Positions 657-20,418 of a stretch of DNA of 43,061 nt are shown here, in pieces. The notes beneath the pieces are model-generated. The model had not been told where the DNA came from. It saw only the letters and a list, made by a program, of their open reading frames with translations, and ran no database searches. The stretch's first letter is position 1, and each line of letters starts with the position of its first letter. Source of the stretch: Candidatus Sabulitectum sp. (GTDB lineage: Bacteria; Fermentibacterota; Fermentibacteria; Fermentibacterales; JCC-6); contig JAOZUR010000020.1 in NCBI GenBank assembly GCA_029938555.1, forward strand, positions 1 to 43,061. The letters are read 5' to 3'. Made by a program: the position numbers and the translations under genes.

Positions 657-956
657 TTTTGCTCCATCATGAAAGTTGTATTTTATAATTAGAAAGGTAA
701 AATACAACTTTATATACAATATGCAAGAGCTGATTTATGGCACTTTCTTTTAGGTGCAAAGGGTGTTACAATATTGAAATGCTGCTATTTTTCAAATGTA
801 ATGAATTTGGTTTCAGTAAGTAATCCAACTTTATGAAGGGTGTAAAGAAAGTCTGATTTCCTTTTGTGAAACAATGTTCTGTTTTGAAGATGCAGCGTGA
901 AAATGGCTTGTAATGGTTACTTTTTAGTTTAAAATTACTGATTATTGGAGGTCACT

Positions 957-2189: not shown

Positions 2190-2323
2190 TCTAATAGAAA
2201 ATAACGGGAATTTTTTTCTTTTACAGTATTACAGTATTACTGTTTTTCTGTTTTGTGAAGAGTTTTAACAGTTGTGGCCAGAACATGAATTTTCGATTAA
2301 AGTTTAAACAATAAAGTTCTGCG

Positions 2324-2354
2324 TTGACTATTTTGTGTTTCTGTGGGATATTCT
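2324..2354 (+). promoter_or_regulatory. Possible sigma70-type promoter for the U32-aro operon
   Basis: TTGACT (2324-2329) and TATTCT (2349-2354) with a 19-nt spacer (17 if GATATT is used), upstream of the 2418 start. Confidence 0.35.
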
Positions 2355-2417
2355 TAAAAATAAGTAATCAGAGAATTTACCAGATACTCATAAATGCAGT
2401 GTTTTATCCGAGGAGTT

Positions 2418-3671: not shown

Positions 3672-3727
3672 ATGAGTAAATTAATTATTGTGATGCATTT
3701 TATCTTCTGAAGTTATTAAGGAGTCTA

Positions 3728-5026
3728 TTGAAAGGGAAAGAAATTTTGATTCCAGGAAGTAAGTACATTGCTAATAGGGTATTGATTCTGTCTGCACTTG
3801 CCCAGGGCAAATCAATCATTCGCAATGTTCCAGACAATTTGGATATCAGGATTATGAAAAACTCTTTGAAAAATTCAGGCATTTCCATAAATGTAACTTC
3901 GGATGTTGAATCTGGTGAAAATGTGCTGGAAGTTATGGGTATAGATTCACCGGAAACTAATCTTAAAGATTCTAGGGAAATAGATGCAGGTGAATCTGGA
4001 ACTTTTTTAAGATTTGTGCTTGGCTTCGCCTGCCTACTGGAAGGTGAAACTTTTTTAACAGCCGGTTACCGAAACAGAGAAAGGCCCATTAAACCACTGA
4101 TTAAAGCTCTCTGTGATCTTGGTGCAAACATCACGCCAGCGCAGAATAAAAGTTTGTATCCATTAAGAATAAAAAAAGGATTAACAGGAGGGCAGACGGT
4201 TATAGATGGTGAGGTTAGCAGTCAATTCGTTAGTTCATTATTGATAGTAGCACCATTTGCCCAGAATGATGTAGAGATAAAAGTGAACAAACCAATTGTT
4301 TCATCTTGTTATATTGACCTGACAATTCGAGAGATGGAAAAATTCGGAGTCTGGGTAAACAGAGAAAAAACAGATGGGTATCATTTGTTCAAAATTAAAG
4401 CTGGGCAGAGGTATAAGCCTTCTCATGTTTTCATTCCAAAGGATTGGAGTTCAACAAACTATCTAATTGCTGCATCAGTTATTCTTAGCAAAAAAATCAG
4501 TATTCATCAGATTTCTCCTGAAACTAATCCTGGGGAATCAGAATTTAGTGCGATTTTGCAAGGAATGGGCTCTTGTATTGAATTTGGTTCAGGAACTGTA
4601 TCGATTCAGAAATCAGATATTCTGCATGGTATAGAAGTTGATATGAAAGACAGCCCTGATTCTGTTTTAACTCTTATTGCAGTTGCTTTGTTTGCAGAAG
4701 GAACAACAGTTATAAAAAATATAGGTCATTTGATTTATAAAGAAAGCAACAGAATAATACAGGTGGAGAAAGAACTAAAAAAACTAGGAGCTGATATTAG
4801 TACTACAGAAAATTCAATTACTATTTCAGGCGGTAATAAGTTGTTAGCTGCTACAACTGAAACTCATAATGACCACCGGCTTGCAATGTGTCTTGGTTTA
4901 ATACAATTGAGAAACAAAAAGATGAAAATTCGGAACAAAGAATGTGTTGAAAAATCCTTTCCGGAATTCTGGACTTATCTTAGCAAAATAGAGAATGAAG
5001 GTGAAAAATGCCTGGTGATTCAATAG
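3728..5026 (+). CDS. aroA: 3-phosphoshikimate 1-carboxyvinyltransferase (EPSP synthase), divergent
   Basis: PGSKYIANR, SGTFLRF, RERPIKPL, VSSQFVSSLL, DSPDSVLTLIAVALFAEG, KESNR and NDHRLAM motifs. TTG start preceded by AAGGAG. Confidence 0.9.
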   Translation: MKGKEILIPGSKYIANRVLILSALAQGKSIIRNVPDNLDIRIMKNSLKNSGISINVTSDVESGENVLEVMGIDSPETNLKDSREIDAGESGTFLRFVLGFACLLEGETFLTAGYRNRERPIKPLIKALCDLGANITPAQNKSLYPLRIKKGLTGGQTVIDGEVSSQFVSSLLIVAPFAQNDVEIKVNKPIVSSCYIDLTIREMEKFGVWVNREKTDGYHLFKIKAGQRYKPSHVFIPKDWSSTNYLIAASVILSKKISIHQISPETNPGESEFSAILQGMGSCIEFGSGTVSIQKSDILHGIEVDMKDSPDSVLTLIAVALFAEGTTVIKNIGHLIYKESNRIIQVEKELKKLGADISTTENSITISGGNKLLAATTETHNDHRLAMCLGLIQLRNKKMKIRNKECVEKSFPEFWTYLSKIENEGEKCLVIQ

Positions 5027-5031
5027 GACTT

Positions 5032-6096
5032 ATGTTCAAAGTTACTGTGTGGGGTGAATCTCATGGCTCTTCAATTGGTGCTGTAATTGAAGGATGTCCT
5101 CCAGGTGTTGAATTAGATGTGGAGAATATCTCAGAACAGTTAAAAAGACGCAAGCCAGGTGGCAGCAAATTTGTGAGTGGTCGAGTAGAACAAGATAATT
5201 TCGAAATTTTGTCTGGTGTCTTTCATGGAAAAACAACAGGAACTCCCATTAGCATTCTTATTAAAAATCAAGGTTTTAACAAAGAAAATTATACAAACAT
5301 CAGCGAAGTGTTCAGACCAGGGCATGCAGACTATACCTATCAGGCAAAATATGGAATACGAGATTTTTACGGTGGAGGAAGAAGTTCTGCAAGGCTTACT
5401 GCTCCAATTGTAGCGGCAGGCGCCATAGCCATGCAGGTGATTAGCAGTCAGAATTCCATTACTATTCAGGCTTATGTTAAAAAAATAGGAAACATTGAAA
5501 TGAATACAAACTGGTGTTCTGTTAAAAAATCTGATTCACTTGGAAGTTCCATTTTTTTTCCAGACAAACAAAATGAGAAAGAAATTCTTAGACTTCTTGA
5601 GAATCTCAAAGAAGAAGGAAATTCTATTGGTGGAATTGTTGAATGTGTTATAGATAATATTCCAGCGGGTCTGGGTGAGCCACTTTTTGATAAACTGGAT
5701 GGGGATTTGGCTAAAGTAATGGTGGGTTTGAATGCGGTTAAAGGGTTTGAAGTTGGTAATGGATTCAGTTGTGTTGAATTGACCGGTCTGGAAAACAATG
5801 ATGAGCCTACATTTGTGGATGGAGATGTAAAAACGCTCAGTAATAATTCCGGTGGAATACTTGGCGGAATCTCAAATGGAAACCCAATAGTTTTCAGAGT
5901 GGCCTTTAAGGCAACCCCAAGCATTTCACAAAAGCAGAATACAATTGATATTAAAGGAAAAAAACAAGAAATATCAGTTACCGGTGATCATGATGTCTGT
6001 GTGGCTATTCGGGCAGTGCCAGTTGTTGAAGCTTTGTCTGCAATTGTTGTTTGTGATCATTTATTGAGATTCCGAGGGCAGTGTGGAAACAAATGA
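5032..6096 (+). CDS. aroC: Chorismate synthase
   Basis: MFKVTVWGESHGSSIGAVIEGCPPG, RRKPGGSKFVSGRVEQD, GGGRSSARLTAPIVAAGAIA, NGNPIVFRVAFKATPSI and AVPVVEALSAIVVCDHLL are diagnostic. A start at ATG 5008 is also possible. Confidence 0.97.
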   Translation: MFKVTVWGESHGSSIGAVIEGCPPGVELDVENISEQLKRRKPGGSKFVSGRVEQDNFEILSGVFHGKTTGTPISILIKNQGFNKENYTNISEVFRPGHADYTYQAKYGIRDFYGGGRSSARLTAPIVAAGAIAMQVISSQNSITIQAYVKKIGNIEMNTNWCSVKKSDSLGSSIFFPDKQNEKEILRLLENLKEEGNSIGGIVECVIDNIPAGLGEPLFDKLDGDLAKVMVGLNAVKGFEVGNGFSCVELTGLENNDEPTFVDGDVKTLSNNSGGILGGISNGNPIVFRVAFKATPSISQKQNTIDIKGKKQEISVTGDHDVCVAIRAVPVVEALSAIVVCDHLLRFRGQCGNK

Positions 6097-6344
6097 ACAA
6101 TATCAATAACATCAGAGAAGAAATCGATACTGTTGACAGAGAGATTTTGAAGCAGCTTAACAAAAGACTTCAGCTGGTTCACAAAATAAAAGAAATCAAA
6201 AGACAGAGCAATATTTCAATAGAAGACAAGAATAGGGAAGAGGAAATTGTTTCCAGTTTAAATCTGGGTGATCTGGATGTAAATTTTGTAAAAGCAATCT
6301 ACCAATTGATATTTAGTTACTCTAAAGATATTCAATCAAAGTGA
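6093..6344 (+). CDS. Chorismate mutase, AroQ class
   Basis: REEID-VDREIL, NKRLQLVHKIKEIK, EDKNREEEI and C-terminal SKDIQ. The residues aligning with E. coli CM R11, R28, K39, D48, R51, S84 and Q88 are all present. ATGA overlap with the aroC stop. Confidence 0.9.
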   Translation: MNNINNIREEIDTVDREILKQLNKRLQLVHKIKEIKRQSNISIEDKNREEEIVSSLNLGDLDVNFVKAIYQLIFSYSKDIQSK

Positions 6345-6623
6345 ATTTTTGATTTATCTCTTCTAAGTAGAAGCTCTTCACTCATTGGTTGTACAGAAAA
6401 AGCAAACTTCCCTGGTAAAGTAAAGTATTTTTCAATTTTGAAAGCCAGTTCCTCGAAGAACGAGTAGGATGTGAGGTTTAAGGGCTCCCAATGCACTCGG
6501 TCAAAGCTCGGATTATCTTACAGACTATAGATTAACCCCAATCTGTTGTGCAAGTTCTTTTCTAGAAATTGCTCTTTCAACCCTAAGAGGAAGTATTCTG
6601 TTGTATATTTTTCTTACCTTCAT
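6334..6623 (-). pseudogene. Decayed XRE-family HTH regulator downstream of the membrane protein gene
   Basis: Minus strand reads MKVRKIYNRILPLRVERAISRKELAQQIGVNL* from ATG at 6623. A second frame reads NPSFDRVHWEPLNLTSYSFFEELAFKIEKYFTLPGKFAFSVQPMSEELLL. Together these recover the two ends of a Cro/XRE HTH protein with stops and a frameshift in between. Confidence 0.6.
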
Positions 6624-6626
6624 GGG

Positions 6627-7058
6627 TTAGCTATCAGAAACTGTTCTTTTCCAGGCAATCAAGGTGCCTGGAAGAGTGTGTGAAAGATATATCATGCTGG
6701 CTACCAATGGCATGGAGATTGTGTATTGAGGGCAGATGTTCATTTTGCTGATAAGCGAAAGAGCTAGAAGAATTAAAAGACAAATAACTGCAAACCATCC
6801 ATAGGATTCGCTAAGTGCCCAGTGGGTAAGAGTCAATTCTTTTTCATCAAGATCTTCAGATTTTTTATGGGTTAGTTTCCATATCCCAGATTTCCAGTGA
6901 AGAGGTATGAAAGTAAGAATAACTATCAGAAAACTAGATATTCCAATAATATCATAAATGTGAGAAACACGGCTTCCTCGGTAAACAAAATAGAACATTA
7001 CGTTCATTAATATCAAGGTTAAATAATTCACTACAGTTAGCATTTTCAGATTTTTCAT
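6627..7058 (-). CDS. Four-TM membrane protein of the kind often paired with XRE regulators
   Basis: Hydrophobic helices in MKNLKMLTVVNYLTLILMNVMFYFVYRG...; stop lies 3 nt before the decayed HTH start. Confidence 0.7.
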   Translation of the reverse strand: MKNLKMLTVVNYLTLILMNVMFYFVYRGSRVSHIYDIIGISSFLIVILTFIPLHWKSGIWKLTHKKSEDLDEKELTLTHWALSESYGWFAVICLLILLALSLISKMNICPQYTISMPLVASMIYLSHTLPGTLIAWKRTVSDS

Positions 7059-7279
7059 AATTTCCCCGTTGTATGTTTAAGGTATAAGTTGTAAATATAC
7101 GCAATTAGTTACAATACCACCGTCACCTTGGGGTCTTACTACTTACACAAGTATACCTTCATGGTTACTGGTAATCATTTATGGGAAGCGTCAATTGTCT
7201 TTTGTAAAGAAGCCTTTACTTGAAGAAAAAAATATGAGATTATTACGTGATATACAAAACGCTTTTAGGATGGGGGAAG

Positions 7280-8686
7280 ATGAGAGTAACATTGGTATAT
7301 CCCAGTTATGGAACAGAGCAGCACTCACTGTATTTTCCATTTGGTCTAGCTTATGTGGCGTCATCCTTATTAAATGCAGGGTTTGATGTTACCGTGGTTG
7401 ATATGGAGGGTGACAAATTATCTGTTGCTGAAGCTGTGAATCGTACAGTGGATTCATCTCCAGACGTGGTGGCATTTGGTGGTATGGTAACACGATTTCG
7501 GTTTGTTCGTGAGTTATCCGGTTTAATTCGGAAGGAACTGCCTGATGCTTTCTTCACTGCTGGAAACAGTGGTGTAACCACAGTACCTGAAATTTATCTG
7601 AAGTCATGCGGTCTTGATTGTGTTGTATTAGGTGAGGGTGAGGTAACTTCAGCAGAGCTGGTTTGTGCCTTGAAAGATGGAACGGATTGGAAGAAGGTTG
7701 CTGGAATTGCCTGGTTGGAAGATGATTTATTGGTTAAATCGCCACCACGAGAGCCTATAGCAGATCTTGATACCCTGCCTTGGCCAGCATGGGATTTGTT
7801 CCCTATAGAAAACTATGTATCAAGCATGGATCACAGGCAGAAAAAAGTCAGACATTTGGAAACTCTTGCTAGCAGAGGTTGCCCTTTCAATTGTGTATAC
7901 TGTTATCGTATTTATGGACGAAATGTGCGAAGAAGGTCGCCAGAAGCCATTGTGGCAGAACTTGTAGAGCTTGTTAACAGATTTCAAATAGAATACACCG
8001 GTTTTCCTGATGACCTTTTCACCAGTGACAAAAAATTTGTAATGGAAACCTGTGCTTTGATGAAAGAGAAATTACCTGGAATCAAATGGTCTTGTTTGGG
8101 TAGGGTAAATACAGTTGACCGAGAAATGCTTGAAGCAATGAAGGATGCCGGGTGTGACTGGATTTCTTATGGCATTGAATCCGGTTGCGATATCATGCTT
8201 GAGAAAATGAGAAGAGGGGTTACTGCAAAGCAATGTCTTGATGCTGTTAAACTTACCGAGTCTGTGGGAATTCACGCAGAGGGTAGTTTCGTTATCGGAA
8301 TGTTTGATGAAACCCGTGACTCTGTTAAGAAAACAGTGGATTTCTGTATAAGCGCGGATATAACAGCCCCAATGCTTTTTGTAACTCCATATCCAGGTAC
8401 CGCTATTTATAATATGGCTCTTCAAAAAGGGCTAATAGGTGATGTGGAAGAATTCCTAATGAAAATGAACGCAGCTGACGAACTTTTAGTTAATCTTACA
8501 GATTTTACTGATACAGAGTTGATGGAACTGCGAGACTGGGCGCAAGGAACAATAGGAAGATCTTATCTTTTTAAAAAGCCCTTTACTAGAATACCAAAAC
8601 TGTTATGGAAACATTTTAAATTACACGGCTTTAAAGGTCTATTTCATGATATAAAAGCTTTTCTAGCTTCGATTTTTGCGGGATAA
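7280..8686 (+). CDS. B12-binding domain radical SAM protein
   Basis: N-terminal B12-type Rossmann fold (MRVTLVYPSYGTEQHSLYFPFGLAYVASSLLNAGFDVTVVDM) and RGCPFNCVYC (CxxxCxxC). ATG at 7280 follows TGGGGGAAG; the track start at 7247 is less likely. Confidence 0.9.
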   Translation: MRVTLVYPSYGTEQHSLYFPFGLAYVASSLLNAGFDVTVVDMEGDKLSVAEAVNRTVDSSPDVVAFGGMVTRFRFVRELSGLIRKELPDAFFTAGNSGVTTVPEIYLKSCGLDCVVLGEGEVTSAELVCALKDGTDWKKVAGIAWLEDDLLVKSPPREPIADLDTLPWPAWDLFPIENYVSSMDHRQKKVRHLETLASRGCPFNCVYCYRIYGRNVRRRSPEAIVAELVELVNRFQIEYTGFPDDLFTSDKKFVMETCALMKEKLPGIKWSCLGRVNTVDREMLEAMKDAGCDWISYGIESGCDIMLEKMRRGVTAKQCLDAVKLTESVGIHAEGSFVIGMFDETRDSVKKTVDFCISADITAPMLFVTPYPGTAIYNMALQKGLIGDVEEFLMKMNAADELLVNLTDFTDTELMELRDWAQGTIGRSYLFKKPFTRIPKLLWKHFKLHGFKGLFHDIKAFLASIFAG

Positions 8687-8691
8687 TAAAT

Positions 8692-10008
8692 ATGTCAGAA
8701 ACTAATGTTAATGTCTGCTCGGTTAACAGGTACTTAGCTCCTTTGCTTCCTAGGGCTATTCTTGTAATTCTTGCTGCTGTAATTTTGCCGAGAATGCTGC
8801 TATTTTTCTACCTTGGTGGGGAATTGCCTGCTCCGCCCCGAGATCAACCGCTTTACATACGAGTTGCCGGTCGTCTAGCTCAGGGGGAAGGTTTTTCATT
8901 TTCATCAGAACAGGGGTTGGTAAAACATTTAGTAGGAACACTTCATGATCATATTCCATTATGGACAGCAAGTGAAGATTATGTATTTGGTCTTGCACCG
9001 GTTGAGCAGCCTACTGCAGTAATGGAACCAGGGTATCCTGTACTGCTGGGAGTTTTCTTTTGGTTATTCGGAGGAATCAGCGGAGCAGTTTTTTCCTTAA
9101 ATCTACTGTTTGCTATAGCTGGAGCTTTTGCTGTACGAAAACTGGTTATGGATGTTTGGGGTGCTGAATCTGGTCTTATGGCTGCAATCTTGTGGGCTTT
9201 GTACCCGCCTTATGTTTACTATTCTGCTTTTGCCATGGGTGAAACTGCTCATTTTGTTATGCTTATGGTGGCAACCATGACAATTTTTTCTGCTGGGCGC
9301 GGGGAAAGCAAAGGATTCCTTGCAGGAATTTCCATTGGTTTGTTTTTCCTTATAAGAGCAACAGCCCTTTTTCTTATTCCTTTACAATTGCTCTTTTTGA
9401 TATGGCGGAAAAGGTGGAAAGCTCTTTTGTTTTATTCTGCAGGATTTTTGCTTGCAGTTTCTCCTTGGGTTGTCAGAAACTGGATATCCATGGGTGAACC
9501 TGTTCTTATGCCAACAAAGGGTGTTTTAAACCTTCTCATGAGAAACGATCCTGAAGTTCTGGCAAAAGAAGGAATAACCGTGCCTGAAAATATTCCAGTA
9601 AACAATTTAGATCTTCTTGGGTATCATCCAGTTGATTCTATTTCAGGTGAACTTGAAAGAAGCAGGGTATTAGGGGAAGTGGGAAGGACTTATGTTTTAA
9701 GTAATCCCAGACTTATGCTTTGGTTAGGTTGGAACAGAGCACTTCATTTTCTTGCTCCTGGAGGAAGTACCTTAGGCGGCTCTGGAAGAATCGCCGGGTT
9801 CTTGATTTACCCATTAATGTTATATGGAGTTTGGGGTTTTTGGCGAAACAAATCACACCCAGAGACAATATTTCTTTTTGCACTGTTTATTTTGTATCTT
9901 CTTGTGCATGCTATGGCTCATGGCGGAGTTCGTTATCGATTACCGGTAGACGCTGTTTTTCTTATTGGGGTTTCATTGGTAACTTGTTGTAGGGGGGGAA
10001 AGAAGTGA
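8692..10008 (+). CDS. GT39/ArnT-like polytopic glycosyltransferase
   Basis: Multiple TM helices, PGYPVLLGVFFWLFGG and PPYVYYSAFAMGETAHF loop, VSPWVVRNWISMGEPVLM motif typical of PMT-like GT-C enzymes. Confidence 0.75.
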   Translation: MSETNVNVCSVNRYLAPLLPRAILVILAAVILPRMLLFFYLGGELPAPPRDQPLYIRVAGRLAQGEGFSFSSEQGLVKHLVGTLHDHIPLWTASEDYVFGLAPVEQPTAVMEPGYPVLLGVFFWLFGGISGAVFSLNLLFAIAGAFAVRKLVMDVWGAESGLMAAILWALYPPYVYYSAFAMGETAHFVMLMVATMTIFSAGRGESKGFLAGISIGLFFLIRATALFLIPLQLLFLIWRKRWKALLFYSAGFLLAVSPWVVRNWISMGEPVLMPTKGVLNLLMRNDPEVLAKEGITVPENIPVNNLDLLGYHPVDSISGELERSRVLGEVGRTYVLSNPRLMLWLGWNRALHFLAPGGSTLGGSGRIAGFLIYPLMLYGVWGFWRNKSHPETIFLFALFILYLLVHAMAHGGVRYRLPVDAVFLIGVSLVTCCRGGKK

Positions 10009-11378
10009 AGAGGTTAAAGCGAATTCTTTTCGTTTTTCCAGAGACTAGATATCCGTCAGGTCAACCTCCTTTGGGAATTGCAATGTTATCTGCCGTTGCC
10101 AAGCAAACCGGTGCAGAAACTGTTTTGTGTGATATGTCTTTCCAGAAAAAGCCTTTTGAACATTTAAGTAATCTTCTTCAGAGTTTTAAACCTGATGCTG
10201 TTTCTATTACAGTGGTCACTCCACAGATTAGAGCTACTCTTTCAGCTTGTGAAGTAATTCGTAAGATTGCACCAGAGGTGTATCTTATGATAGGCGGGCC
10301 ACATGCTACTGTTTTGCCAATCGAGACACTTGAAACTTCAAAAGCAGATCTTGTTTATTCAGGTGAAGGTGAAATAGCATTTAAACAGCTTTTAGAGGGA
10401 ACTGATCCCAAGGATATCCCAGGCGCATGTTTTTTCGAAGATGGGAAGGCGATTCTTGTACCTGGTAAACTTCTTGTTGAAAATCTTGATTCGCTGCCTT
10501 TACCAGATAGAAGCATTTTTGATATGAAAAAATACTTCAGCACTTGGTATTCCATGGATAGAGTAGATCCATCCTTAAAGGGTACTACAATAATGGGCAC
10601 TCGTGGTTGCCCTTATACGTGTACTTTCTGTCAGCCTACTTTATCTGAAATTTTCGGGAAAAAAATGCGCAAGCGTTCACCTGAATCTATAATTCAGGAA
10701 CTGAAACATCTGGTAGAAAATTATTCTATAAACGCATTCATGTTTGAGGATTCTACTTTCATTGTAGACCATAAATGGGTAACAGAAATTTGTTCTTTAA
10801 TGATAAGCCAGAAATTGAACTTGAAGTGGTGCTGTAATGTTCGAGCTGATCTGCTTACAGAAGAGCTTCTTGACACAATGGTAAGTGCAGGTTTGTCCAA
10901 AGTTAATATGGGCGTAGAATCTGCTTCACAGAGAGTTCTAGATGATATTTACAGAAAAGGAATTACCGTTGAAGGAGTGAGAAAAGCTCTTCGATTGTGT
11001 CATTCCCGTGGGCTATTTGTTCAAGGGTATTTCATGCTGGGGGCACCAGGTGAAACTGTTGAAGAAATGAAACTAACAATAGATTTTGCCACCAAGGAGC
11101 CTTTTGATGATGCTCTTTTTGATATCACAACGCCATTTCCTCACACGGAACTTTGGGAAATGTCTAAAGAGTTGATAAATGCAGATTATTCAGAGTTTGA
11201 TTGTTTTCATAAAAGTGTTTATACCCTTGATGGAATCACGGCTGAACAGATAGAAAAACTAAAAAGAAATGCCTTCTGGAAATTCTATGCTCATCCAGCA
11301 AGGATTCTGAAAACTGTACGAACCGTTCTTGGACCTCGAAATTTCAAAAGAACGTTGCTTAAGGTAAGGAGAGTATGA
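10005..11378 (+). CDS. B12-binding domain radical SAM protein
   Basis: RILFVFPETRYPSGQPPLGIAMLSAVAKQTG... B12-type N-terminus and RGCPYTCTFC. GTG start overlaps the previous stop. Confidence 0.9.
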   Translation: MKRLKRILFVFPETRYPSGQPPLGIAMLSAVAKQTGAETVLCDMSFQKKPFEHLSNLLQSFKPDAVSITVVTPQIRATLSACEVIRKIAPEVYLMIGGPHATVLPIETLETSKADLVYSGEGEIAFKQLLEGTDPKDIPGACFFEDGKAILVPGKLLVENLDSLPLPDRSIFDMKKYFSTWYSMDRVDPSLKGTTIMGTRGCPYTCTFCQPTLSEIFGKKMRKRSPESIIQELKHLVENYSINAFMFEDSTFIVDHKWVTEICSLMISQKLNLKWCCNVRADLLTEELLDTMVSAGLSKVNMGVESASQRVLDDIYRKGITVEGVRKALRLCHSRGLFVQGYFMLGAPGETVEEMKLTIDFATKEPFDDALFDITTPFPHTELWEMSKELINADYSEFDCFHKSVYTLDGITAEQIEKLKRNAFWKFYAHPARILKTVRTVLGPRNFKRTLLKVRRV

Positions 11379-12106
11379 GAGAACTAACTATTACCATTGA
11401 CGATGGAGGAATGCATCCAGCAGTGAATTCAGCAATTCAAAAGTGTATTGAATCGGGTGCAGTGAATAGAATTAGCATAATGGCCACAGGTAACAGTTTT
11501 GCAGATGCCAGTATGATGGCCATGATGGGAAGCATTCGTGTTGCCGCTCATCTGGATTGCTGTCAAGGACCATTTCTTTTAAAGGAAAGCAGTTTTCCAG
11601 AATCATTTGTAGCATGGCACAAGCTGGGTGATTCTCTAGCAGAATCAGTTAAGCGCGAGTGGGCTGCTCAAATTGAAATGGTTCTTTCAACAGGCGGTGT
11701 TGTTACAGCCCTTGATAGCCACAAACACCTGCATAATCTTCCTGCATTGCATGATGTTATTATTTCTCTTGCAAAAGATTATGGAATCAGAACAGTCAGG
11801 TCAGCAGTACTGCCCGATAAACTTATGAGGTTTCCTGCTGGTTTAAAACTAAACAATCTAGGTGTTGATTTAAAGAAAAAAATAGAAGCAGCAGGGCTTG
11901 TTACAACAGACAGAATGCTTGGATTTGGGAAGGCAGGGAAAATAAATAAAAAGTACCTATCTAAGTATACTTCACTTTGTAAAGATGGTACTACAGAGGT
12001 TGTAATGCACCCAGCTACAGAAAATATCTGGTCTTCAGGGCAACCCGAAGAGTTAAAGTTGATGACCTCTGATTGGTTTGGTGACTGGTGCAAAGGAAAA
12101 AGCTAG
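11375..12106 (+). CDS. YdjC/ChbG/HpnK-like carbohydrate deacetylase
   Basis: TITIDDGGMHPAVNSAIQKC (ADDFG-type motif), AAHLDC, LDSHKHLHNLPALHDVI and a C-terminal VVMHPA histidine. Confidence 0.8.
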   Translation: MRELTITIDDGGMHPAVNSAIQKCIESGAVNRISIMATGNSFADASMMAMMGSIRVAAHLDCCQGPFLLKESSFPESFVAWHKLGDSLAESVKREWAAQIEMVLSTGGVVTALDSHKHLHNLPALHDVIISLAKDYGIRTVRSAVLPDKLMRFPAGLKLNNLGVDLKKKIEAAGLVTTDRMLGFGKAGKINKKYLSKYTSLCKDGTTEVVMHPATENIWSSGQPEELKLMTSDWFGDWCKGKS

Positions 12107-13431
12107 AATTCTATGTTCTTCTAACTGCACTTCTGGTTAGGCTTGCAGTTTTTGGTCTTGCAGCAAGTGGTTTTTTTCTGGTAGGCGAAGGACGGGTTCA
12201 GGCTAATTTGGCCGAGAACATACTTGCAGGAAGAGGTTTTTTACTTTCTGAATCAATGTTTCATGATGCTGACCCAAGAAGAGATGCTCAGCTTGCTTTC
12301 TTCCGGGAAACAGGTGGTTTTTATGGGGCACTTCTTCCTGAAAAACCAACATCGTTTCTTGTTCCCGGTTATGCTTTGTTTGAAGCTTTTATTTTTCTGA
12401 TCACATCCTCTGGCAACCTTCTTGCAGTAATTGGTTTTCAGCTTATCCTTGGAGTTCTCACTGTTTACTTAGGCATGAAACTCGCATGGCGTTTTCTTTC
12501 AGGGCGTTGGTATATAGCAGCTGCAATTTTCATGGCTCTAGATCCTTATGAATTATATTATCAAGCAATCCCTGCAACACAGGCTCTTTTTTCATTGCTT
12601 TTTGTAGCAGGTCTTTTGCAATCACTTCGTTTTCTTGAGAAACCTGCTGTTTCAAGAGCAATATTTACAGGATTACTGTGGGGGAGCACTTTTATGGTGC
12701 GCCCTGCTGCTCTTCCAATGGTTTTATGGCTTGCGGTTGTTGCTATAGTTGCTTTTAAGTTCTCAAAAAAGGTATTTATTCCATTGCTTGTTATGTTGAT
12801 TTGTTTTGGTTTAGTTTTAACTCCGTGGGCGCTAAGAAATAAGAATACCATGGGACGCTATCAGGTTTTACCACTTCAAGGCGGAGTTCAGATGTGGGAA
12901 TACAACGGTCGAATCTTTACCGATGCTTTTCTTAATGAACACAAAGGTGCAACTCTTCTTTACGGACCAGTGCGAGACACATGGTTATCAAAGTTAAAAC
13001 GCCCGGAACTTGCTGAATTTCCTGAATTTACAACTGAATCAGAGTTTGAAAGAGACAGTACTCTGTATTTCCGCCAGAGTGAATTCATAAAATCAAACCC
13101 AGGTCTTTTTCTTCATCTTTCCGCCTGTAGATTTGCTGAATTTTTTAAACCGTTTCCTTTGAACGATTTTTCACCGGTACATACAACGCTCGGAATTGTT
13201 TCATTCTTCTGGGTTGGTATTTTCTTTTTTGCAGGTACTTTGCTTTTGATTCCCATGGGAAAACATGGTGTTTATATTTCGGGAGTGATTTTGGGATATA
13301 TACTGATGCATCTTTTGACTGCTTCTGGTACTCCTCATCGTGTAGCTCTCGATATTCCACTTGTAATTGCTTCTCTTGTTGCTGTTAAGTATTCTGTATT
13401 AAGATATAAAGTGATGAAAAAAGCTACATGA
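12088..13431 (+). CDS. GT39/ArnT-like polytopic glycosyltransferase (paralogue of 8692-10008)
   Basis: Same topology and motifs: VPGYALFEAFIFLI, DPYELYYQAIPATQALF, LTPWALRNKNTMGRYQVL. GTG start at 12088. Confidence 0.75.
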   Translation: MQRKKLEFYVLLTALLVRLAVFGLAASGFFLVGEGRVQANLAENILAGRGFLLSESMFHDADPRRDAQLAFFRETGGFYGALLPEKPTSFLVPGYALFEAFIFLITSSGNLLAVIGFQLILGVLTVYLGMKLAWRFLSGRWYIAAAIFMALDPYELYYQAIPATQALFSLLFVAGLLQSLRFLEKPAVSRAIFTGLLWGSTFMVRPAALPMVLWLAVVAIVAFKFSKKVFIPLLVMLICFGLVLTPWALRNKNTMGRYQVLPLQGGVQMWEYNGRIFTDAFLNEHKGATLLYGPVRDTWLSKLKRPELAEFPEFTTESEFERDSTLYFRQSEFIKSNPGLFLHLSACRFAEFFKPFPLNDFSPVHTTLGIVSFFWVGIFFFAGTLLLIPMGKHGVYISGVILGYILMHLLTASGTPHRVALDIPLVIASLVAVKYSVLRYKVMKKAT

Positions 13432-14372
13432 GAATTCTTGTTGTGAAAACTCATGCATTCGGAGATTCTTTGCTTGCTACAGCTGCAGTTTCAGCATTGA
13501 TAGATTCTGGGAATAGTGTTTCAGTTTTATCAGGTCCTTCATCTGTAGATGTTTGGAACAGACTGCCGGGAATAGAGTTAGTCATTCAATCTCCAGTACC
13601 CTGTTCATTTTTGAAACTATTTTGGTGGTCACTAAGAAATAAATTGACAGGTTTTGATAAAGTTATTCATCTTGGTTCCTCTAAGAAAGTTTATTATTGG
13701 CTTCGCTTATTGACTGGTTCTGATGTAATAAGTGGAGGAGATGGCAAAACAGGTTTTGGTCTAGCTAGGCCTGCTGCACTTGATTATTGCAGAATTGCAG
13801 GAGTTTCAAATGCAAATCTGAGACCAGTTTTCCCATTAACTCACATAGAAATCTCCACTGCTGAAAAATTCACAGGAAGCTCTTCCTATATTGTGCTTGC
13901 CCCTGGTGGCGCAAGAAATGCAAGAGATTTTGTGCCCTTGAAAAGGTGGCCAATGTCTTCCTGGCAAAAGGTTTCTCTTGCTTTACAGGCAAGAGGGTAT
14001 AAAGTTATTCTTATCGGCGGCCCATCTGACAGAAATGAAATCTCTTCAGTTACCGGTTTGAATCTTGCAGGAAAGCTCTCATGGGGTGAGACTGCAGCTG
14101 TGATTTCAAAAGCAACAATGTTTGCTGGAAATGATAGTGGTCCAGCACATCTTGCAGTTGCAACAGCAGTGCCCGTTCTGGTTTTATTCGGGCCCACAGA
14201 TCCTGAAGCTTTGTATGAGAAGGGCAGTATTGTTCCTGTTTGTGGAACAGTATCCTGTTCACCTTGTTATTCAAATAGTATCTTTCCAGGTTGCAAAGGA
14301 GACGAGGATTGTATGACTTCAATTAATACCGAAATGGTTATTGATACCCTGGAAGGGATGCTTCATAAATGA
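13428..14372 (+). CDS. GT9 heptosyltransferase-like glycosyltransferase
   Basis: MRILVVKTHAFGDSLLATAAVSAL and AGNDSGPAHLAVATAVPVLVLFGPTDPE, typical of the GT9/RfaF family. Confidence 0.9.
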   Translation: MRILVVKTHAFGDSLLATAAVSALIDSGNSVSVLSGPSSVDVWNRLPGIELVIQSPVPCSFLKLFWWSLRNKLTGFDKVIHLGSSKKVYYWLRLLTGSDVISGGDGKTGFGLARPAALDYCRIAGVSNANLRPVFPLTHIEISTAEKFTGSSSYIVLAPGGARNARDFVPLKRWPMSSWQKVSLALQARGYKVILIGGPSDRNEISSVTGLNLAGKLSWGETAAVISKATMFAGNDSGPAHLAVATAVPVLVLFGPTDPEALYEKGSIVPVCGTVSCSPCYSNSIFPGCKGDEDCMTSINTEMVIDTLEGMLHK

Positions 14373-15817
14373 AAGTAACAGCTTTAAATCCACCATTTTT
14401 GCCATTATTCAGCCGAGGTCAGAGAAGTCCTGCTGTCACAAGAAGTGGCACTCTTTATTACCCTATCTGGCTTTCGTATGCTGTTGGTGCCCTTGAACAG
14501 GCTGGGCATAGTATTCAATTTATTGATGCACCTGCTATGGACCTGGATGGAGAAACAACTTTAGAAAAAATCAAGGAATTCTCTCCTGAATTGATCATAG
14601 TGGATACCTCAACTCCTTCCATTATAAACGATGTTAAGTTTGCTGATTCTTTAACAGAAGAAGTTGGTTGTTCTGTTTTTATTACAGGAACACATCCATC
14701 TGCTCTGCCTGAGGAAACAGTTCTTCTTGGTTCTAAATTTACTGGGGCAATTCTTGGGGAATATGAAAAACCTCTGCTGAAAATAGCAGAAGCTCTTAAA
14801 AACAATCTGACAATTGAGGGCATTTCGGGAACAGCATTAAGATCAGAAGACGGTGTATCAGTCACACAGCCTGATGGATACCTTTCAGATCTTGATTCTT
14901 TGCCTTTTGTTAGCTCGGTTTATGCAACACATCTTCCAGTGGAAAGATACAATAATCCTAATGCTCTTCACCCACAGGTGATGATTATGGGAGGAAGAGG
15001 TTGTCCTAATCATTGCAGTTTTTGTGTGTTCCCACAGATGCTTACTGGGCGATTTTACCGAAGTCGCTCTGTTCAAAATGTTGTTGCTGAAATGAAATGG
15101 GTTCAAGAAAATATGCCAGAAGTTCAGGCAGTATTTTTCGAAGACGATACTATTGCTGCTGATATGAAAAGACTTAGATTGCTTTCTGAAGAAATAATAA
15201 AGCAGAAAGTTACTATTTCATGGACATGTAACATGAGAGCGACAGCAGATTATAAAACACTTGATATGTGTCATTCAGCTGGGCTTCGCTCTGTTTGTGT
15301 TGGTTTTGAAAGTGGTTGTAATGAAATTCTTGAATCCATGAGAAAAGGGTTAAAGACCGGTCAAATGACAGAGTTTATGGACAATGCCCGCAAGGCAGAT
15401 ATTCTTGTTCATGGTTGTTTTCTTTTTGGAATTCCAGGTGAAACTAGAGATACTGCTAACAGAACTCTTAAGTTCGCTTTAAATCTTAATCCAGATACAG
15501 CTCAATTTTATCCACTCATGGTCTATCCAGGAACTGATGCTTATTCTGATGTTCAGAAAGCAGGTTTGCTTGATGCGTCCAGCTGGAGAGACTGGTTGAA
15601 AGAAGATGGCACACATGCTTGTGTGGTTAAAACACCGGACATGACATCTGATGATCTTGTTGAGTTTTGTAATTACGCAAGAAGAAAGTTTTACTTAAGA
15701 CCGGGTTACATGATAAAAAAAGCATGGCGTAGTATTTGGGACAAAGGGGAAAGGCATCGAACTCTTCTTGCTTTTCGAACTTTCCGTAAATACATATTCA
15801 GGCGTGGAAATGGCTGA
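14369..15817 (+). CDS. B12-binding domain radical SAM protein
   Basis: YYPIWLSYAVGALEQAGHSIQFIDAP N-terminal domain and RGCPNHCSFC. Third paralogue in the operon. Confidence 0.9.
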   Translation: MKVTALNPPFLPLFSRGQRSPAVTRSGTLYYPIWLSYAVGALEQAGHSIQFIDAPAMDLDGETTLEKIKEFSPELIIVDTSTPSIINDVKFADSLTEEVGCSVFITGTHPSALPEETVLLGSKFTGAILGEYEKPLLKIAEALKNNLTIEGISGTALRSEDGVSVTQPDGYLSDLDSLPFVSSVYATHLPVERYNNPNALHPQVMIMGGRGCPNHCSFCVFPQMLTGRFYRSRSVQNVVAEMKWVQENMPEVQAVFFEDDTIAADMKRLRLLSEEIIKQKVTISWTCNMRATADYKTLDMCHSAGLRSVCVGFESGCNEILESMRKGLKTGQMTEFMDNARKADILVHGCFLFGIPGETRDTANRTLKFALNLNPDTAQFYPLMVYPGTDAYSDVQKAGLLDASSWRDWLKEDGTHACVVKTPDMTSDDLVEFCNYARRKFYLRPGYMIKKAWRSIWDKGERHRTLLAFRTFRKYIFRRGNG

Positions 15818-16757
15818 AATCTCTGTAGTTGTCCCTTTCAGGGGTGAATGGAACAGTTTGATTCCCACATTAATAGCATTGAATCAACAGACCATTCGAT
15901 CCGTTTTATCTGTTGTTTTGAGTGTGGACGGGCACGAGCCCCCGCCACCTGCCATTGAAAAACTTGTTGATGTTTTTGTTACTGGACCTCAGGCTGGGCC
16001 TGCTTCAGCAAGAAATAGAGGGTGGCGTCAGACAGATACTCCATTCATTTTGTTTACTGATTCTGATTGTGTACCACAGGCTAACTGGGCAGAAAAGATG
16101 TTTTCAGTTCTGAAAAATGAGTATGACGCAGCAAAAGGAGTATATTCTAAAGGTGGAACCCGACTGATACAAAGACTGGCTCAGGTAGAGTTCGAGGAGC
16201 GATATCGTCTTATGAATAAGTCGGAGGTTCTTTATCTTGCTGATACTTATTCTGCTGGTTTTCACAGGGAATGGTTAGTTAAGCTTAATGGTTTTGATGA
16301 AAGTTTCCCTTTACCTGAACACGAGGATGTTGATCTTTCCTGGAGGCTTGTAAAAGCTGGAGGGAAAATTGGGTTTGCAGCCCAAGCTATGGTAGCTCAT
16401 ACCCACAGGAAGAGCTGGTCAGAGTATTTTAAGATGAAGTATCGCCGTGGAAAGTGGAGGATTATTCTGGTAAAAAGTTACCCTGCAAGAGTTGTAAAAG
16501 ATGGGTATACTCCGCAGAGCTTGAAACTGCAGATGCTTTTGTCTTTTCCGGTTATTGTTTCATTGGTTCTACTTCCTGTTTACCCAGTTATAACATCCAT
16601 CGTATTGTTGCTCTTCCTACTGTTTACGCTTCCTTTAATGTATACTGCACTTCTCACTGATTCTTCAGTTTGTTTTGCTGTTCCATTTTTTGCGTTATGG
16701 AGGGCTCTTGCTTTGTTTTCTGGTGCACTTGTTGGGTTAAAGAAGGGGCGTAAATAG
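15810..16757 (+). CDS. GT2 family glycosyltransferase
   Basis: MAEISVVVPFRGEWNSLIPTLIALNQQ, ARNRGWRQTDTPFILFTDSDC, PEHEDVDLSWRL. ATG at 15810 fits the family N-terminus better than the track start at 15768. Confidence 0.88.
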   Translation: MAEISVVVPFRGEWNSLIPTLIALNQQTIRSVLSVVLSVDGHEPPPPAIEKLVDVFVTGPQAGPASARNRGWRQTDTPFILFTDSDCVPQANWAEKMFSVLKNEYDAAKGVYSKGGTRLIQRLAQVEFEERYRLMNKSEVLYLADTYSAGFHREWLVKLNGFDESFPLPEHEDVDLSWRLVKAGGKIGFAAQAMVAHTHRKSWSEYFKMKYRRGKWRIILVKSYPARVVKDGYTPQSLKLQMLLSFPVIVSLVLLPVYPVITSIVLLLFLLFTLPLMYTALLTDSSVCFAVPFFALWRALALFSGALVGLKKGRK

Positions 16758-18145
16758 TGTTTGCTCCTATTCGCCGACAACAAAGAATCTATATTCTATT
16801 TCTGCTAGCAGCTGATGTGATCACAGTACCACTTTCCTTGTTTATAACTTGGTACATAAGAACCAGTTGGTTATCAGAATTCTTGCCAGGTTTTACCCAT
16901 ACAATTTCTATCTACTTAGCAACAATTCCAGTTCTTCTTCTTTTGTGGTTAATTTCATGGTGGTCTGCTGGTATGTTTGAGCTGGGAACCCAACAGGCTG
17001 CTTTTTCCGGTCTGGCAAGGCGAATGCGCGCTGCTTTTTATTTAACAGTTGCTGTTATGGCAGCAAGTTATCTTGTAAAAATGGACTATTCAAGAATAAT
17101 GTTACTTATATTCATTCTTTTGTCACAGCCTGTAAACATTTTATTAAGGAAGCTATTCAGTTCCATCTCTCGTAAAGTTGCTCCAATCAAGGAATCACCA
17201 GCTACGTTGGTGATTGGTTCAGGTGAGTTTGCAGAGAGAGTAATTACTTCTTTGAATAAATTCCCAGAGCCAAGACATAAAATTAAAGGTGTTCTGGTTG
17301 AAAATACTGATGTTTCTCAAGAAATTGCAGGTGTGAAGGTAATAGGGCAACCGCGGGATTTACCAAGATTGGTTCAAAGTTTATCGATTGATGAGGTTTT
17401 CTTTGCCAGTGGTTCCATGAGTCGAACAGATATGTTGAAAATAGTGAATTCGGTTCAAAAGCAAGATGTTGTTTTTATGTTGGTGACGGATCTTTTTGAA
17501 ATAGTTACCGGGGTCGGTGATTTAAGCAGTATATCCAGAATGCCAGTTGTGGAAATTGGTTCATCACACAAAGGTATTTTTAATAGTTTTACCAAGAGGT
17601 TGATGGATTTACTTATGTGTCCTATTCTTATTGTCCTTCTTGCTCCGCTCATGGCTGCTATCTGGGTTATTCTTGCGTTAAAACACCAGGGATCTCCGAT
17701 TTTTAAACAGACTCGTGTTGGACGATATGGAAAAGATTTTACTCTTTACAAATTTAGAACAATGAAACCTGAAGCGAATGAGTATGAAGTTGCACCGGTT
17801 CATAAAAACGATTCAAGGGTGACAGGAATAGGTAGATTCTTAAGGAAAACAAGTCTTGATGAACTTCCTCAGTTGTTTAATGTTCTCAGGGGCAGGATGA
17901 GCATGGTCGGGCCAAGGCCTGAAATGGATTTTATCGTAAGTAGTTACAATGCCTGGCAAAGAAGACGACTTGATGTAAAACCTGGAATAACCGGCTTGTG
18001 GCAGATCATGGGTAGGAAAGATCTTCCTCTTCATGAAAATCTTGAATACGATTTTTACTACATGAGAAATCAATCAGTTATGCTTGATATGGCAATTCTT
18101 GCAAGAACGGTTGTTACTGTGTTAAAAGGAAGGGGAGCATACTGA
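16757..18145 (+). CDS. Polyprenyl-phosphate hexose-1-phosphate transferase (WbaP/bacterial sugar transferase type)
   Basis: N-terminal TM helices, central CoA-binding-like domain, C-terminal KRLMDLLMCPILIVLLAPL...GSPIFKQTRVGRYGKDFTLYKFRTM...LDELPQLFNVLRGRMSMVGPRP...KPGITGLWQ. Confidence 0.93.
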   Translation: MFAPIRRQQRIYILFLLAADVITVPLSLFITWYIRTSWLSEFLPGFTHTISIYLATIPVLLLLWLISWWSAGMFELGTQQAAFSGLARRMRAAFYLTVAVMAASYLVKMDYSRIMLLIFILLSQPVNILLRKLFSSISRKVAPIKESPATLVIGSGEFAERVITSLNKFPEPRHKIKGVLVENTDVSQEIAGVKVIGQPRDLPRLVQSLSIDEVFFASGSMSRTDMLKIVNSVQKQDVVFMLVTDLFEIVTGVGDLSSISRMPVVEIGSSHKGIFNSFTKRLMDLLMCPILIVLLAPLMAAIWVILALKHQGSPIFKQTRVGRYGKDFTLYKFRTMKPEANEYEVAPVHKNDSRVTGIGRFLRKTSLDELPQLFNVLRGRMSMVGPRPEMDFIVSSYNAWQRRRLDVKPGITGLWQIMGRKDLPLHENLEYDFYYMRNQSVMLDMAILARTVVTVLKGRGAY

Positions 18146-18894
18146 TTACTAATATTGCACTTTATGCTTTGATTGGAATTGGGATACTTACTGGTACTGC
18201 ACAAACAGGAATTGGCGTTTTTCCTGCAGCATGGAGTGATGATGCTTTTTCTTGCATGCAATCACCAGCAGGTATGGGTCGAATAGAGTTTCTGGAAGTA
18301 GCTGCAACTGGATTGGTAACAGACGACCATGGAAGTGGTTCTTTTGCTGCTGTACAACCTCTTGGTTTGTCTGGATTTCATGTTGGCGTAGGTGCCGGGT
18401 GGAACAGTATTAATAATACTGGAACTGGTCAAGTCTCGGGTAGTTACATTATTGCAGGAGATCCCATCGGTTTTATGGCAGGTTTGTTTGGTCCTAGTCT
18501 TACCACAGGTTTTTCAGCTCGGTATTTACACTCGGATAGTTCAGAAGTTAATTCTTTTGATTGTGACGCAGGGGTTCAATTTTCTCTTTTTCCATCGTCA
18601 GCTGTGGGAGTTTCAGTAATAAATATTCTTGACAACAGGGTTTTTACCACAGGTTTCAGCCATGTTTTTAATAGGAATTTAATAGTACATACAGCATTAT
18701 CTGAAGGCAAGTGGCAGGTGGGAGCGGGGCTTATGATAACAAGAAAACTCCAGTTGTATGCGGGAACCAACAAAAAAAACAATGTTCATTCTGGGTTCAC
18801 ATTTTCAAATGGAAACTGGAAGTTCGGTTACGGAGCTGTATTTCAAGAAAATAGTGTAAATCATGTCTTTGGTTTATCAAGGAGGTTTCAGTGA
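18142..18894 (+). CDS. Predicted secreted/outer-membrane protein, unknown function
   Basis: Start proposed at CTG 18142 (CTGA overlap with upstream stop), giving signal-like (M)ITNIALYALIGIGILTGTAQ. The track start is TTG 18169. Alternating hydrophobic pattern and C-terminal ...HVFGLSRRFQ consistent with a beta-barrel. Confidence 0.6.
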   Translation: MITNIALYALIGIGILTGTAQTGIGVFPAAWSDDAFSCMQSPAGMGRIEFLEVAATGLVTDDHGSGSFAAVQPLGLSGFHVGVGAGWNSINNTGTGQVSGSYIIAGDPIGFMAGLFGPSLTTGFSARYLHSDSSEVNSFDCDAGVQFSLFPSSAVGVSVINILDNRVFTTGFSHVFNRNLIVHTALSEGKWQVGAGLMITRKLQLYAGTNKKNNVHSGFTFSNGNWKFGYGAVFQENSVNHVFGLSRRFQ

Positions 18895-20057
18895 CAGTTT
18901 TGCTCATTGTATTTACTCTTTTTGCCCAACCTGATATTGAAGATAGCACTTTTGATCCAGCTTTGTTTTTTTATGCCACAGCCTCAGCGGATCTTGAATC
19001 CGGAATGAAATCTCTTTCTGCTGATACACTTCTTGTTTTTCCGCAGGTTTCTTTCATTAATGAATGGGTAAGCTTAAGTTCTGTAAGTGCCATGACTTAT
19101 TCTGAAGATACAACTGTTACTTTTTTCCAGCCTGTTAGTGCAGGTGCTTTTTTTAAGTGGCCAGGGTCACCATGGATCGGTACAGGGGTTTCTCTCAGGC
19201 TCTTAAGTCCATTCATTCCAGGCCTGAACAAACCTGTACTCGAGTGGCAACCCTACTCTATGAATGATTCCACAGTTGTTACGCTTGAAGCAGGAGGGCT
19301 TATGGGGTTTAAAGGGTTTTGGAATCAATCTGGTGATAGCCTTTCATGGTGTGGAGTGAATTCTCCATGGCTGGGTTTTGGTTCTGTTGGTTGGAATAGG
19401 GTATTACAGGATACTTCCAGCCTTGAGGTCTATAGTGGTTTTCTTGATTTACAGGTGGTACAACCTTGGTTCCTTTTTGTAAACGAAGGTTCAAGGTGGA
19501 CATATCTTACAGAAGTAAGAGGTTGGAAAACTCCATCAATGTTTGATCTATCTATGGAAATTGTTCCGATGATTTATTTTGAAGAAGATTCAAATGCTTA
19601 TGGCATCACCACATACCTAAATGGAAAAAATACAGCTATCAGTGGATCGTTACAAGCTCTGTTTAATTCGTCTAATTATTCAGAACCATCTTTTTCAGCT
19701 GGATTAGATGTTCTTTCCCAGGCAGGCATAAACTGGGCTGTGAAAGCTGACTATGATCAACTGAAAGATTTATACGCTGAGATTTCAGGTTTTTATTTAA
19801 TGTCGCCTGCTGGTTGCGGTGCCTCTCTTGAATTGATTGATCATAACCTCCGAGTAACTTCCACTGCGTTGTATTCACCAGTTCCAGGGGTTGCAGCAGA
19901 ATTTTCAGTCATGGCAGATGTTAGTTGCGATTCTCCGAAACCTGGTTGTATTTTTCGTGTATATGGATCCCGTGAAAGCTTTTCATCAGTTGTTACTGTG
20001 GATTGGAACGATGGTTCTACTACTTTGGGTCTGGAGGTCTCTGCATGGATCGACTGA
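18891..20057 (+). CDS. Predicted secreted/outer-membrane beta-barrel protein, unknown function
   Basis: MTVLLIVFTLFAQP signal peptide, aromatic-rich alternating strands to the C-terminus. Overlaps the previous gene. Confidence 0.6.
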   Translation: MTVLLIVFTLFAQPDIEDSTFDPALFFYATASADLESGMKSLSADTLLVFPQVSFINEWVSLSSVSAMTYSEDTTVTFFQPVSAGAFFKWPGSPWIGTGVSLRLLSPFIPGLNKPVLEWQPYSMNDSTVVTLEAGGLMGFKGFWNQSGDSLSWCGVNSPWLGFGSVGWNRVLQDTSSLEVYSGFLDLQVVQPWFLFVNEGSRWTYLTEVRGWKTPSMFDLSMEIVPMIYFEEDSNAYGITTYLNGKNTAISGSLQALFNSSNYSEPSFSAGLDVLSQAGINWAVKADYDQLKDLYAEISGFYLMSPAGCGASLELIDHNLRVTSTALYSPVPGVAAEFSVMADVSCDSPKPGCIFRVYGSRESFSSVVTVDWNDGSTTLGLEVSAWID

Positions 20058-20401
20058 TTGTTTTATCTTTGCTGTTGTGTTCCTGTGCTGTTTTTGTGCC
20101 TGCAGAAAAATCAGACACAGATCAGATGATTTTTTATAATGCTGCTGCAGCCAGGGTTCAACTGGTTGGAGACTGGAATAATTGGGGGGGGCTAACTGAG
20201 GCTACAGCTCTGGTTGACCCTTCCTGTGGAATAATGAATAATGAGGACGGATTTTGGAAAGTTTCTCTGCCTGAAGATTTAAGCAAGGGAAGATATAGAT
20301 ATGCTTTTCTGGTGAATGGGTCACAGTTTTTTTATGACCCGTTGAATCCCGAGAGGTCCATGTTTAATCAACATGAGGTTTCTGTTCTTTTGATAGACTG
20401 A
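20045..20401 (+). CDS. Secreted/lipoprotein with CBM48 (AMPK glycogen-binding-like) domain
   Basis: MDRLIVLSLLLCSCAV signal; AARVQLVGDWNNWGG...DGFWKVSLPEDLSKGRYRYAFLVNGSQFFYDPLNP matches the E-set/CBM48 pattern. ATG at 20045, overlapping the upstream stop. Confidence 0.75.
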   Translation: MDRLIVLSLLLCSCAVFVPAEKSDTDQMIFYNAAAARVQLVGDWNNWGGLTEATALVDPSCGIMNNEDGFWKVSLPEDLSKGRYRYAFLVNGSQFFYDPLNPERSMFNQHEVSVLLID

Positions 20402-20418
20402 CACGAGAGGGGTTTGGT

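Follow-up and report, generated by a model that had tools for sequence, protein, structure and literature searches.

A non-hopanoid relative of HpnJ in a glycan operon of Candidatus Sabulitectum with three B12-type radical SAM genes

Three B12-type radical SAM genes stand among glycan genes

The stretch of DNA analysed here (the window) comprises 43,061 nt of Candidatus Sabulitectum sp., a member of the Fermentibacterota (assembly GCA_029938555.1, contig JAOZUR010000020.1; the host genome measures 3.03 Mb in 151 contigs and is 93% complete). It contains a co-directional run of genes on the forward strand (positions 7280–25399), flanked by aroA–aroC (3728–6096) and rimP–nusA–infB (25548–29539), in which three proteins with a B12-binding and a radical S-adenosylmethionine (SAM) domain, here called rSAM1, rSAM2 and rSAM3, stand among genes for glycan synthesis. 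Our main subject is rSAM3, a relative of the hopanoid enzyme HpnJ.

rSAM1 (7280–8686; PF02310 67.7 bits, PF04055 82.9 bits), for which the Met at 7280 is a preferable start to the upstream GTG at 7247, precedes a polytopic glycosyltransferase (GT) of the GT39/PMT_2 type (GT39a, 8692–10008; PF13231 29.6 bits, cut-off 26.1). rSAM2 (10005–11378; PF02310 64.8 bits, PF04055 84.4 bits) precedes an HpnK-like N-deacetylase of the YdjC/CE14 type (11375–12106; PF04794 131.5 bits), a GT39/PMT_2-like polytopic glycosyltransferase (GT39b, 12088–13431) and a GT9 heptosyltransferase-family protein (13428–14372; PF01075 91.1 bits). rSAM3 (14369–15817; PF02310 39.8 bits, PF04055 71.7 bits) is followed directly at its 3′ side by a GT2 glycosyltransferase (15768–16757; PF00535 47.4 bits) and then by a polyprenyl-phosphate glycosyl-1-phosphate transferase of the monoPGT type (PGT, 16757–18145; PF02397 213 bits). 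From rSAM2 to PGT, neighbouring genes abut or overlap by no more than 50 bases. The order then continues with two genes of unassigned family, a CBM48 protein, a MalK-type ATPase, a WecA-like GT4 and a Wzy_C protein. There are no lipid-biosynthesis genes in the operon; glycosyltransferases and PGTs account for nearly all neighbours.

All three radical SAM proteins exceed the Pfam cut-offs for the N-terminal PF02310 (32.1 bits) and for PF04055 (29.5 bits), and all carry a CxxxCxxC motif (CPFNCVYC, CPYTCTFC, CPNHCSFC) that is invariant in the alignments. An earlier reading of the letters alone (the original prediction) had described three such genes, each directly before glycan genes, and both their presence and the gene order are as it said. 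Details needed amendment. The range it gave, 7280–15817, stops short of the GT2 and PGT genes, which together extend over 15768–18145. The deacetylase name stands, the name WbaP does not: PGT passes the general model TIGR03025 (375 bits, cut-off 295.6) and scores 262 against 403 on the WbaP model. The GT39 label of the second such gene stays under the cut-off (PF13231 23.7 bits against 26.1).

rSAM3 belongs to a wider HpnJ clade

HpnJ contracts the sugar ring on bacteriohopanetetrol-glucosamine in the synthesis of the hopanoid cyclitol ether, and is treated as a hopanoid gene. We compared the three proteins with NCBIfam models, whose curated cut-offs are 577.6 bits for HpnJ (TIGR03471), 481 for BchE, 500 for AprD4, 400 for TIGR04295 and at least 251 for the methylthiotransferases. 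The match of rSAM3 to HpnJ spans the whole protein and scores 340.5 bits, the next family being BchE with 143; rSAM2 scores 181.8 bits on HpnJ and 170.2 on BchE, and rSAM1 187.5 on BchE and 154.9 on HpnJ. None of the three reaches a curated cut-off. tRNA methylthiolation, the unrelated function that the original prediction had held up against itself, is out: the MiaB/RimO models give 20–44 bits against cut-offs of at least 251, compared with 155–340 bits for HpnJ and 143–188 for BchE. Membership of TIGR04295 (B12_rSAM_oligo), a family of B12 radical SAM proteins whose name hints at oligosaccharide loci, is likewise out for all three (77–88 bits against 400).

A careful tree of 73 proteins (LG+C20, 1000 bootstraps), with which a quick tree agrees, unites rSAM3 with hopanoid HpnJ in a clade supported at 100/98. 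Within it hopanoid HpnJ forms a tight subclade (100/100) and rSAM3 lies in a separate subclade of 35 sequences (100/97); we call the non-hopanoid members, rSAM3 included, the glycan type. The assignment of rSAM3 to this wider HpnJ clade is strongly supported by profile and tree together. rSAM1 and rSAM2 fall outside it, so that a single family for all three proteins is ruled out, and by profile comparison the two match no named subfamily. The original prediction's remark that no characterised counterpart is known is wrong for rSAM3, whose nearest functional counterpart is HpnJ. A small archaeal and Patescibacteria group shifts its position, and the glycan type falls on one side of a branch in 12% of bootstrap trees; the tree supports neither HpnJ nested within the glycan type nor HpnJ as its sister.

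Twelve residues are specific to the clade, being among the columns that are at least 85% conserved in both HpnJ and the glycan type and less than 35% in outgroup proteins: R19, W34, D88, Y185, P202, Q223, P250, R307, F336, H348, Q379 and G414 (rSAM3 numbering). All 12 are found in rSAM3, in a second HpnJ-type protein of the host, in a homologue from Lawsonia intracellularis (both below) and in HpnJ; rSAM1 and rSAM2 have none. At eight further positions, the switch columns, glycan type and HpnJ differ almost without exception (R16/A, S20/Y, T28/S, Y30/W, Y132/F, E258/D, A343/L and F380/V, glycan type given first). Taken together, the shared and the switch residues suggest a common chemistry on another substrate.

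HpnJ-type genes in Fermentibacterota occur in genomes where no hopanoid cyclase was found

An HpnJ-type gene is present in all 42 Fermentibacterota genomes searched, nearly always in two copies, and in 24 of 24 of good quality. No squalene-hopene cyclase was found in 20 Fermentibacterota genomes, namely the host (93% complete) and 19 relatives. Among 36 named genomes, a strong cyclase match (weak partial matches were not counted) occurs in 10 of the 12 with hopanoid-type HpnJ versus three of the 24 with the glycan type (Fisher p = 6e-5), a contrast that is exaggerated because several of the 24 genomes are small archaeal or partial ones.

The second HpnJ-type gene of the host (contig C60, 10997–12448; 359 bits) lies directly 5′ of a PGT gene, with GT4, epimerase and DegT genes as neighbours, and this arrangement is conserved in relatives. 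Further B12 radical SAM genes of the host adjoin a Wzx-type flippase gene (contig C118), GT2 and GT39 genes (C56) and a GT39 gene (C147). The B12 radical SAM enzymes of this organism mostly sit beside glycan genes. On C118 (7000–26000), two B12 radical SAM genes flank the Wzx-type flippase, an AMP-ligase and a protein with PEGA and FGE-sulfatase domains.

The conserved core of the locus includes rSAM3 and the deacetylase

We compared 20 related loci, 19 of which fully cover the YdjC/rSAM2 region. Genes in the fetched loci were called mechanically, which makes all neighbour tallies given here approximate and likely lower bounds; metagenome bins may include foreign contigs. rSAM3, GT2 and PGT are present in all 20 loci, and YdjC in every one of the 19 that cover its position. 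rSAM2 is found in 13 of these 19; of the remaining six loci, four have GT39a directly next to YdjC. rSAM1 occurs in five loci of the 20, all in the host's genus, where it is missing from two of seven. One locus (genome G015) has lost both GT39 genes and kept YdjC–GT9–rSAM3–GT2–PGT. This is the retained core; rSAM1 and rSAM2 are accessory. Since the synteny is conserved across the order, the arrangement is far from a chance one. The presence of three radical SAM genes in one operon, which the original prediction found unusual, holds for the window and is lineage-specific.

Adjacency had paired YdjC with rSAM2. We dropped this pairing, as YdjC is kept where rSAM2 is lost: with YdjC present in six loci that lack rSAM2, a pairing with rSAM3 is better. 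The metal-binding residues of YdjC (D-H-H; IDD, AHL and SHxHLH) agree with those of HpnK, and the protein scores 103.9 bits on the HpnK model TIGR03473 (cut-off 232.6) versus 58.7 on ChbG. The GT2 beside rSAM3 gave no HpnI-family match at E ≤ 0.001.

Glycan-type relatives are found in about 20 phylum-level groups

A collection scan for relatives was evaluated for the best 80 of 583 confirmed matches. The glycan-type members among the matches listed span about 20 phylum-level groups, archaea included, such as Riflebacteria, Planctomycetota, Chloroflexota, Omnitrophota, Bacillota, Magnetococcales, Aenigmatarchaeota and Diapherotrites. In 17 of the 29 loci of other phyla in this set, the gene directly after the HpnJ-like gene encodes a GT2, and the upstream neighbours are likewise rich in glycosyltransferases. 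Marichromatium gracile DSM 203 (5980–7467) is an exception: its glycan-type homologue is followed by a molybdopterin oxidoreductase gene, and no adjacent glycosyltransferase was found.

Plasmid 1 of Lawsonia intracellularis (NC_008012.1, 27 kb) carries a 42% identical copy within a heptose/glycan-type cluster. This cluster (5151–19753) encodes an SIS isomerase, an HAD-IIIA hydrolase, a GHMP kinase, GalE, GT2 proteins and five class I SAM methyltransferases. The Lawsonia homologue is annotated merely as a radical SAM protein; it and three other homologues from cultured bacteria score 376–408 bits on the HpnJ model, under the cut-off, which is probably why annotation misses the connection. In Candidatus Ozemobacter sibiricus (353–9928) four B12 radical SAM genes lie around the glycan-type HpnJ homologue, and in a Riflebacteria locus (5950–11604) there are three; multi-enzyme loci thus recur outside Fermentibacterota. 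A plasmid of Eleftheria terrae (1492–9168) encodes, consecutively, a PIG-L deacetylase, a WecB-type glycosyltransferase, a radical SAM protein, a cobalamin-dependent protein, an epimerase and a GT4, possibly a parallel module of deacetylase and radical enzyme.

We found no published description of non-hopanoid HpnJ relatives in the open-access literature, to which our reading was confined, so novelty is unproven; nor did this literature yield anything relevant on exopolysaccharide or O-antigen clusters that encode B12 radical SAM enzymes, or on the radical SAM protein of the Lawsonia plasmid.

Predicted structures and the question of cobalamin

The predicted models of rSAM3 and rSAM2 (predicted local distance difference test, pLDDT, 93.7 and 89.8, respectively) both have AprD4 with the aminosugar-containing paromamine as their top match in the PDB (template modelling score 0.76–0.79), followed by MgmA, TsrM, OxsB, CysS and TokK; a viral fold library gave generic radical SAM matches only. 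In sequence alignment, the B12 domain aligns with those of OxsB, TokK and CysS; AprD4 aligns in the core only. The loops of the B12 domain are intact in rSAM3 (GTHPSALPE), rSAM2 (GGPHATVLPIE) and rSAM1 (GNSGVTTVPE), the last resembling the OxsB loop GNVIPSFSPE in the alignment. The loss of B12-binding residues that the original prediction had also named as a point against it is seen in none of the three. The features for B12 binding are, by alignment, retained in all of them, and cobalamin binding itself is predicted.

A MetH-type B12 domain is encoded by the host and most relatives (9/10 genomes). CobS was detected in two of 10 Fermentibacterota genomes (G012 and G038), the host not being one of them, and a PduO-type adenosyltransferase in none of the 10 genomes searched, host included. 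As the host lacks a CobS or PduO-type gene, corrinoid, if used, must be taken up from outside, and Fermentibacterota likely depend on others for it.

The distal part of the operon and other genes of the window

Downstream of PGT, the two conserved operon proteins of unassigned family (18169–18894 and 18891–20057) have no Pfam match and are 24–61% conserved within the order. Judged by eye, both have an exported, beta-rich look. They are followed by a small CBM48-type carbohydrate-binding protein (20003–20401; PF02922 28.3 bits), a MalK-type ABC ATPase (20419–21468; PF00005 120 bits, and PF17912), a WecA/TagO-like polyprenyl-phosphate sugar-1-phosphate transferase (21465–22529; PF00953 121 bits) and a Wzy/O-antigen-ligase-like protein (Wzy_C, 22529–25399; PF04932 83.5 bits). 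Elsewhere in the window, at 37495–39332, an ApbE flavin transferase gene precedes one for a small radical SAM protein without a B12 domain.

Discussion

The genes hpnI, hpnK and hpnJ encode a glycosyltransferase, a deacetylase and a radical enzyme, and are nearly always present or absent together (PMC12583986). HpnJ is stated to catalyse ring contraction (PMC8590665). It is further described as one of the cobalamin-dependent non-methylases, among which OxsB had until then been the only one studied mechanistically (PMC13142503). The GT2, YdjC and rSAM3 proteins of the window match these three roles, from which we propose deacetylation of an N-acetylhexosamine followed by ring remodelling by rSAM3, on a glycan that is polyprenyl-linked or still growing. 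In this proposal the locus would build a polyprenyl-linked surface glycan with a radically remodelled amino sugar, that is, one containing an aminocyclitol; we give it a shade less than an even chance of being right. PGT, the WecA-like GT4 or both would load the first sugar phosphate onto the polyprenyl carrier; the GT2, GT9 and GT39 proteins would extend the chain, adding at least one N-acetylhexosamine; the YdjC/HpnK-like enzyme would strip the N-acetyl group; rSAM3 would rearrange the resulting amino sugar in situ, the likeliest change being contraction of the pyranose to a cyclopentane aminocyclitol in the manner of HpnJ; and the Wzy-type protein would link the units. rSAM1 and rSAM2 may add extra, lineage-specific modifications, with C-methylation as the default guess.

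With HpnJ, rSAM3 shares full-length homology, the common clade, the 12 clade residues and partners of the GT2 and YdjC type; unlike HpnJ it sits in a separate subclade, differs in all eight switch columns, and comes from a glycan operon that also encodes PGT and Wzy, in a genome where no hopanoid cyclase was found. The window's YdjC shares with HpnK the CE14 family, the D-H-H motif and an operon with an HpnJ-type gene; it is shorter than HpnK and diverged, scoring well under the HpnK cut-off. OxsB, from oxetanocin A synthesis, has the same B12 and radical SAM architecture, matches in fold and contracts a sugar ring; unlike rSAM3 it is longer, and it is about 15% identical and has a nucleotide as substrate. 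AprD4, from apramycin synthesis, is the best solved fold and acts on an aminosugar; it differs in catalysing dehydration with a reductase partner, and its N-terminal domain gives no sequence alignment.

Several points weigh against the proposed pathway. rSAM3 stays under the HpnJ cut-off (340.5 against 577.6 bits) and departs from HpnJ at eight positions that are fixed there, which calls for a different substrate and may mean a different reaction as well. Within the fetched flanks no YdjC gene was found beside glycan-type genes outside Fermentibacterota, and the C60 copy has none nearby; deacetylation is therefore not general to the system. The protein that matches best in structure, AprD4, catalyses a dehydration. 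Finally, we infer the substrate and product of rSAM3, and likewise its use of cobalamin.

The radical SAM proteins, rSAM3 included, may instead be class B C-methyltransferases that modify the glycan's sugars in the way known for GenK and GenD1 in gentamicin. Methylases form the majority of B12 radical SAM enzymes (PMC13142503), GenK and GenD1 methylate aminoglycoside sugars (PMC5461906), and the structures that rSAM2 and rSAM3 resemble in fold include TokK, CysS and TsrM; for the unassigned rSAM1 and rSAM2, C-methylation fits as well as anything. We nevertheless consider this explanation unlikely, since the closest family of rSAM3 is a stated non-methylase and C-methylation alone would make little sense of the adjoining deacetylase. 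The original prediction had allowed either methylation or ring rearrangement: as the nearest counterpart of rSAM3 is the ring-contracting HpnJ, rearrangement is the better supported for this protein, and rSAM1 and rSAM2 stay unassigned. The mass-spectrometric test that it had put forward, which looks for additional methyl groups, could miss the product, because ring contraction leaves the mass unchanged.

Two other readings are improbable. The first, that rSAM3, rSAM2 or both are cobalamin-free radical diol dehydratases like AprD4, yielding deoxy sugars, draws on AprD4–paromamine as the best PDB match of both models and on AprD4 as one of the two solved structures closest in sequence. AprD4 however works with the reductase partner AprD3 (PMC5461906), of which no counterpart was recognised among the operon genes; scores on the NCBIfam AprD4 model are 78–114 bits against a cut-off of 500; and the N-terminal part of AprD4 does not align by sequence, whereas each of the three proteins here scores above the cut-off for the B12-binding domain. 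The second, to which we give a similarly small chance, is that the substrate of these enzymes is a lipid, either the polyprenyl carrier or a different one of the membrane, rather than a sugar. The substrate of HpnJ is a membrane-lipid conjugate, and B12 radical SAM enzymes have been proposed for the rings of ladderanes and tetraethers (PMC13142503); against this, glycosyltransferases and PGTs make up almost all neighbours here and elsewhere, and lipid-biosynthesis genes are missing from the operon. A last reading takes rSAM3 for a normal hopanoid HpnJ whose pathway partners are encoded elsewhere in the genome. This is hardly credible despite the full-length similarity of rSAM3 to HpnJ: no cyclase was found in the host and 19 relatives, the clade is separate, the switch residues are fixed and cyclases split 10/12 versus 3/24, so that we reject this reading as close to refuted.

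More tentatively, and with appreciably less confidence than we place in the pathway itself, HpnJ could be the hopanoid branch of a wider family that mainly converts surface-glycan sugars into carbocyclic (aminocyclitol) units. On this bolder view every Fermentibacterota cell would carry glycans with non-sugar rings, with up to three different B12 radical modifications per chain; to our knowledge, no bacterium is known to have such a surface structure. A testable product is predicted, a cyclitol replacing an amino sugar at unchanged mass, and cultivable carriers exist, Halanaerobacter jeridensis DSM 23230 and Solidesulfovibrio alcoholivorans DSM 5433 among them. For annotation, HpnJ-like matches should not be taken for evidence of hopanoids unless a squalene cyclase and the switch residues are also present. 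With HpnJ relatives in glycan operons of about 20 groups among the matches listed, mostly in genomes without a cyclase, radical remodelling of sugar rings may be widespread, and may be an unrecognised step of surface-glycan assembly.

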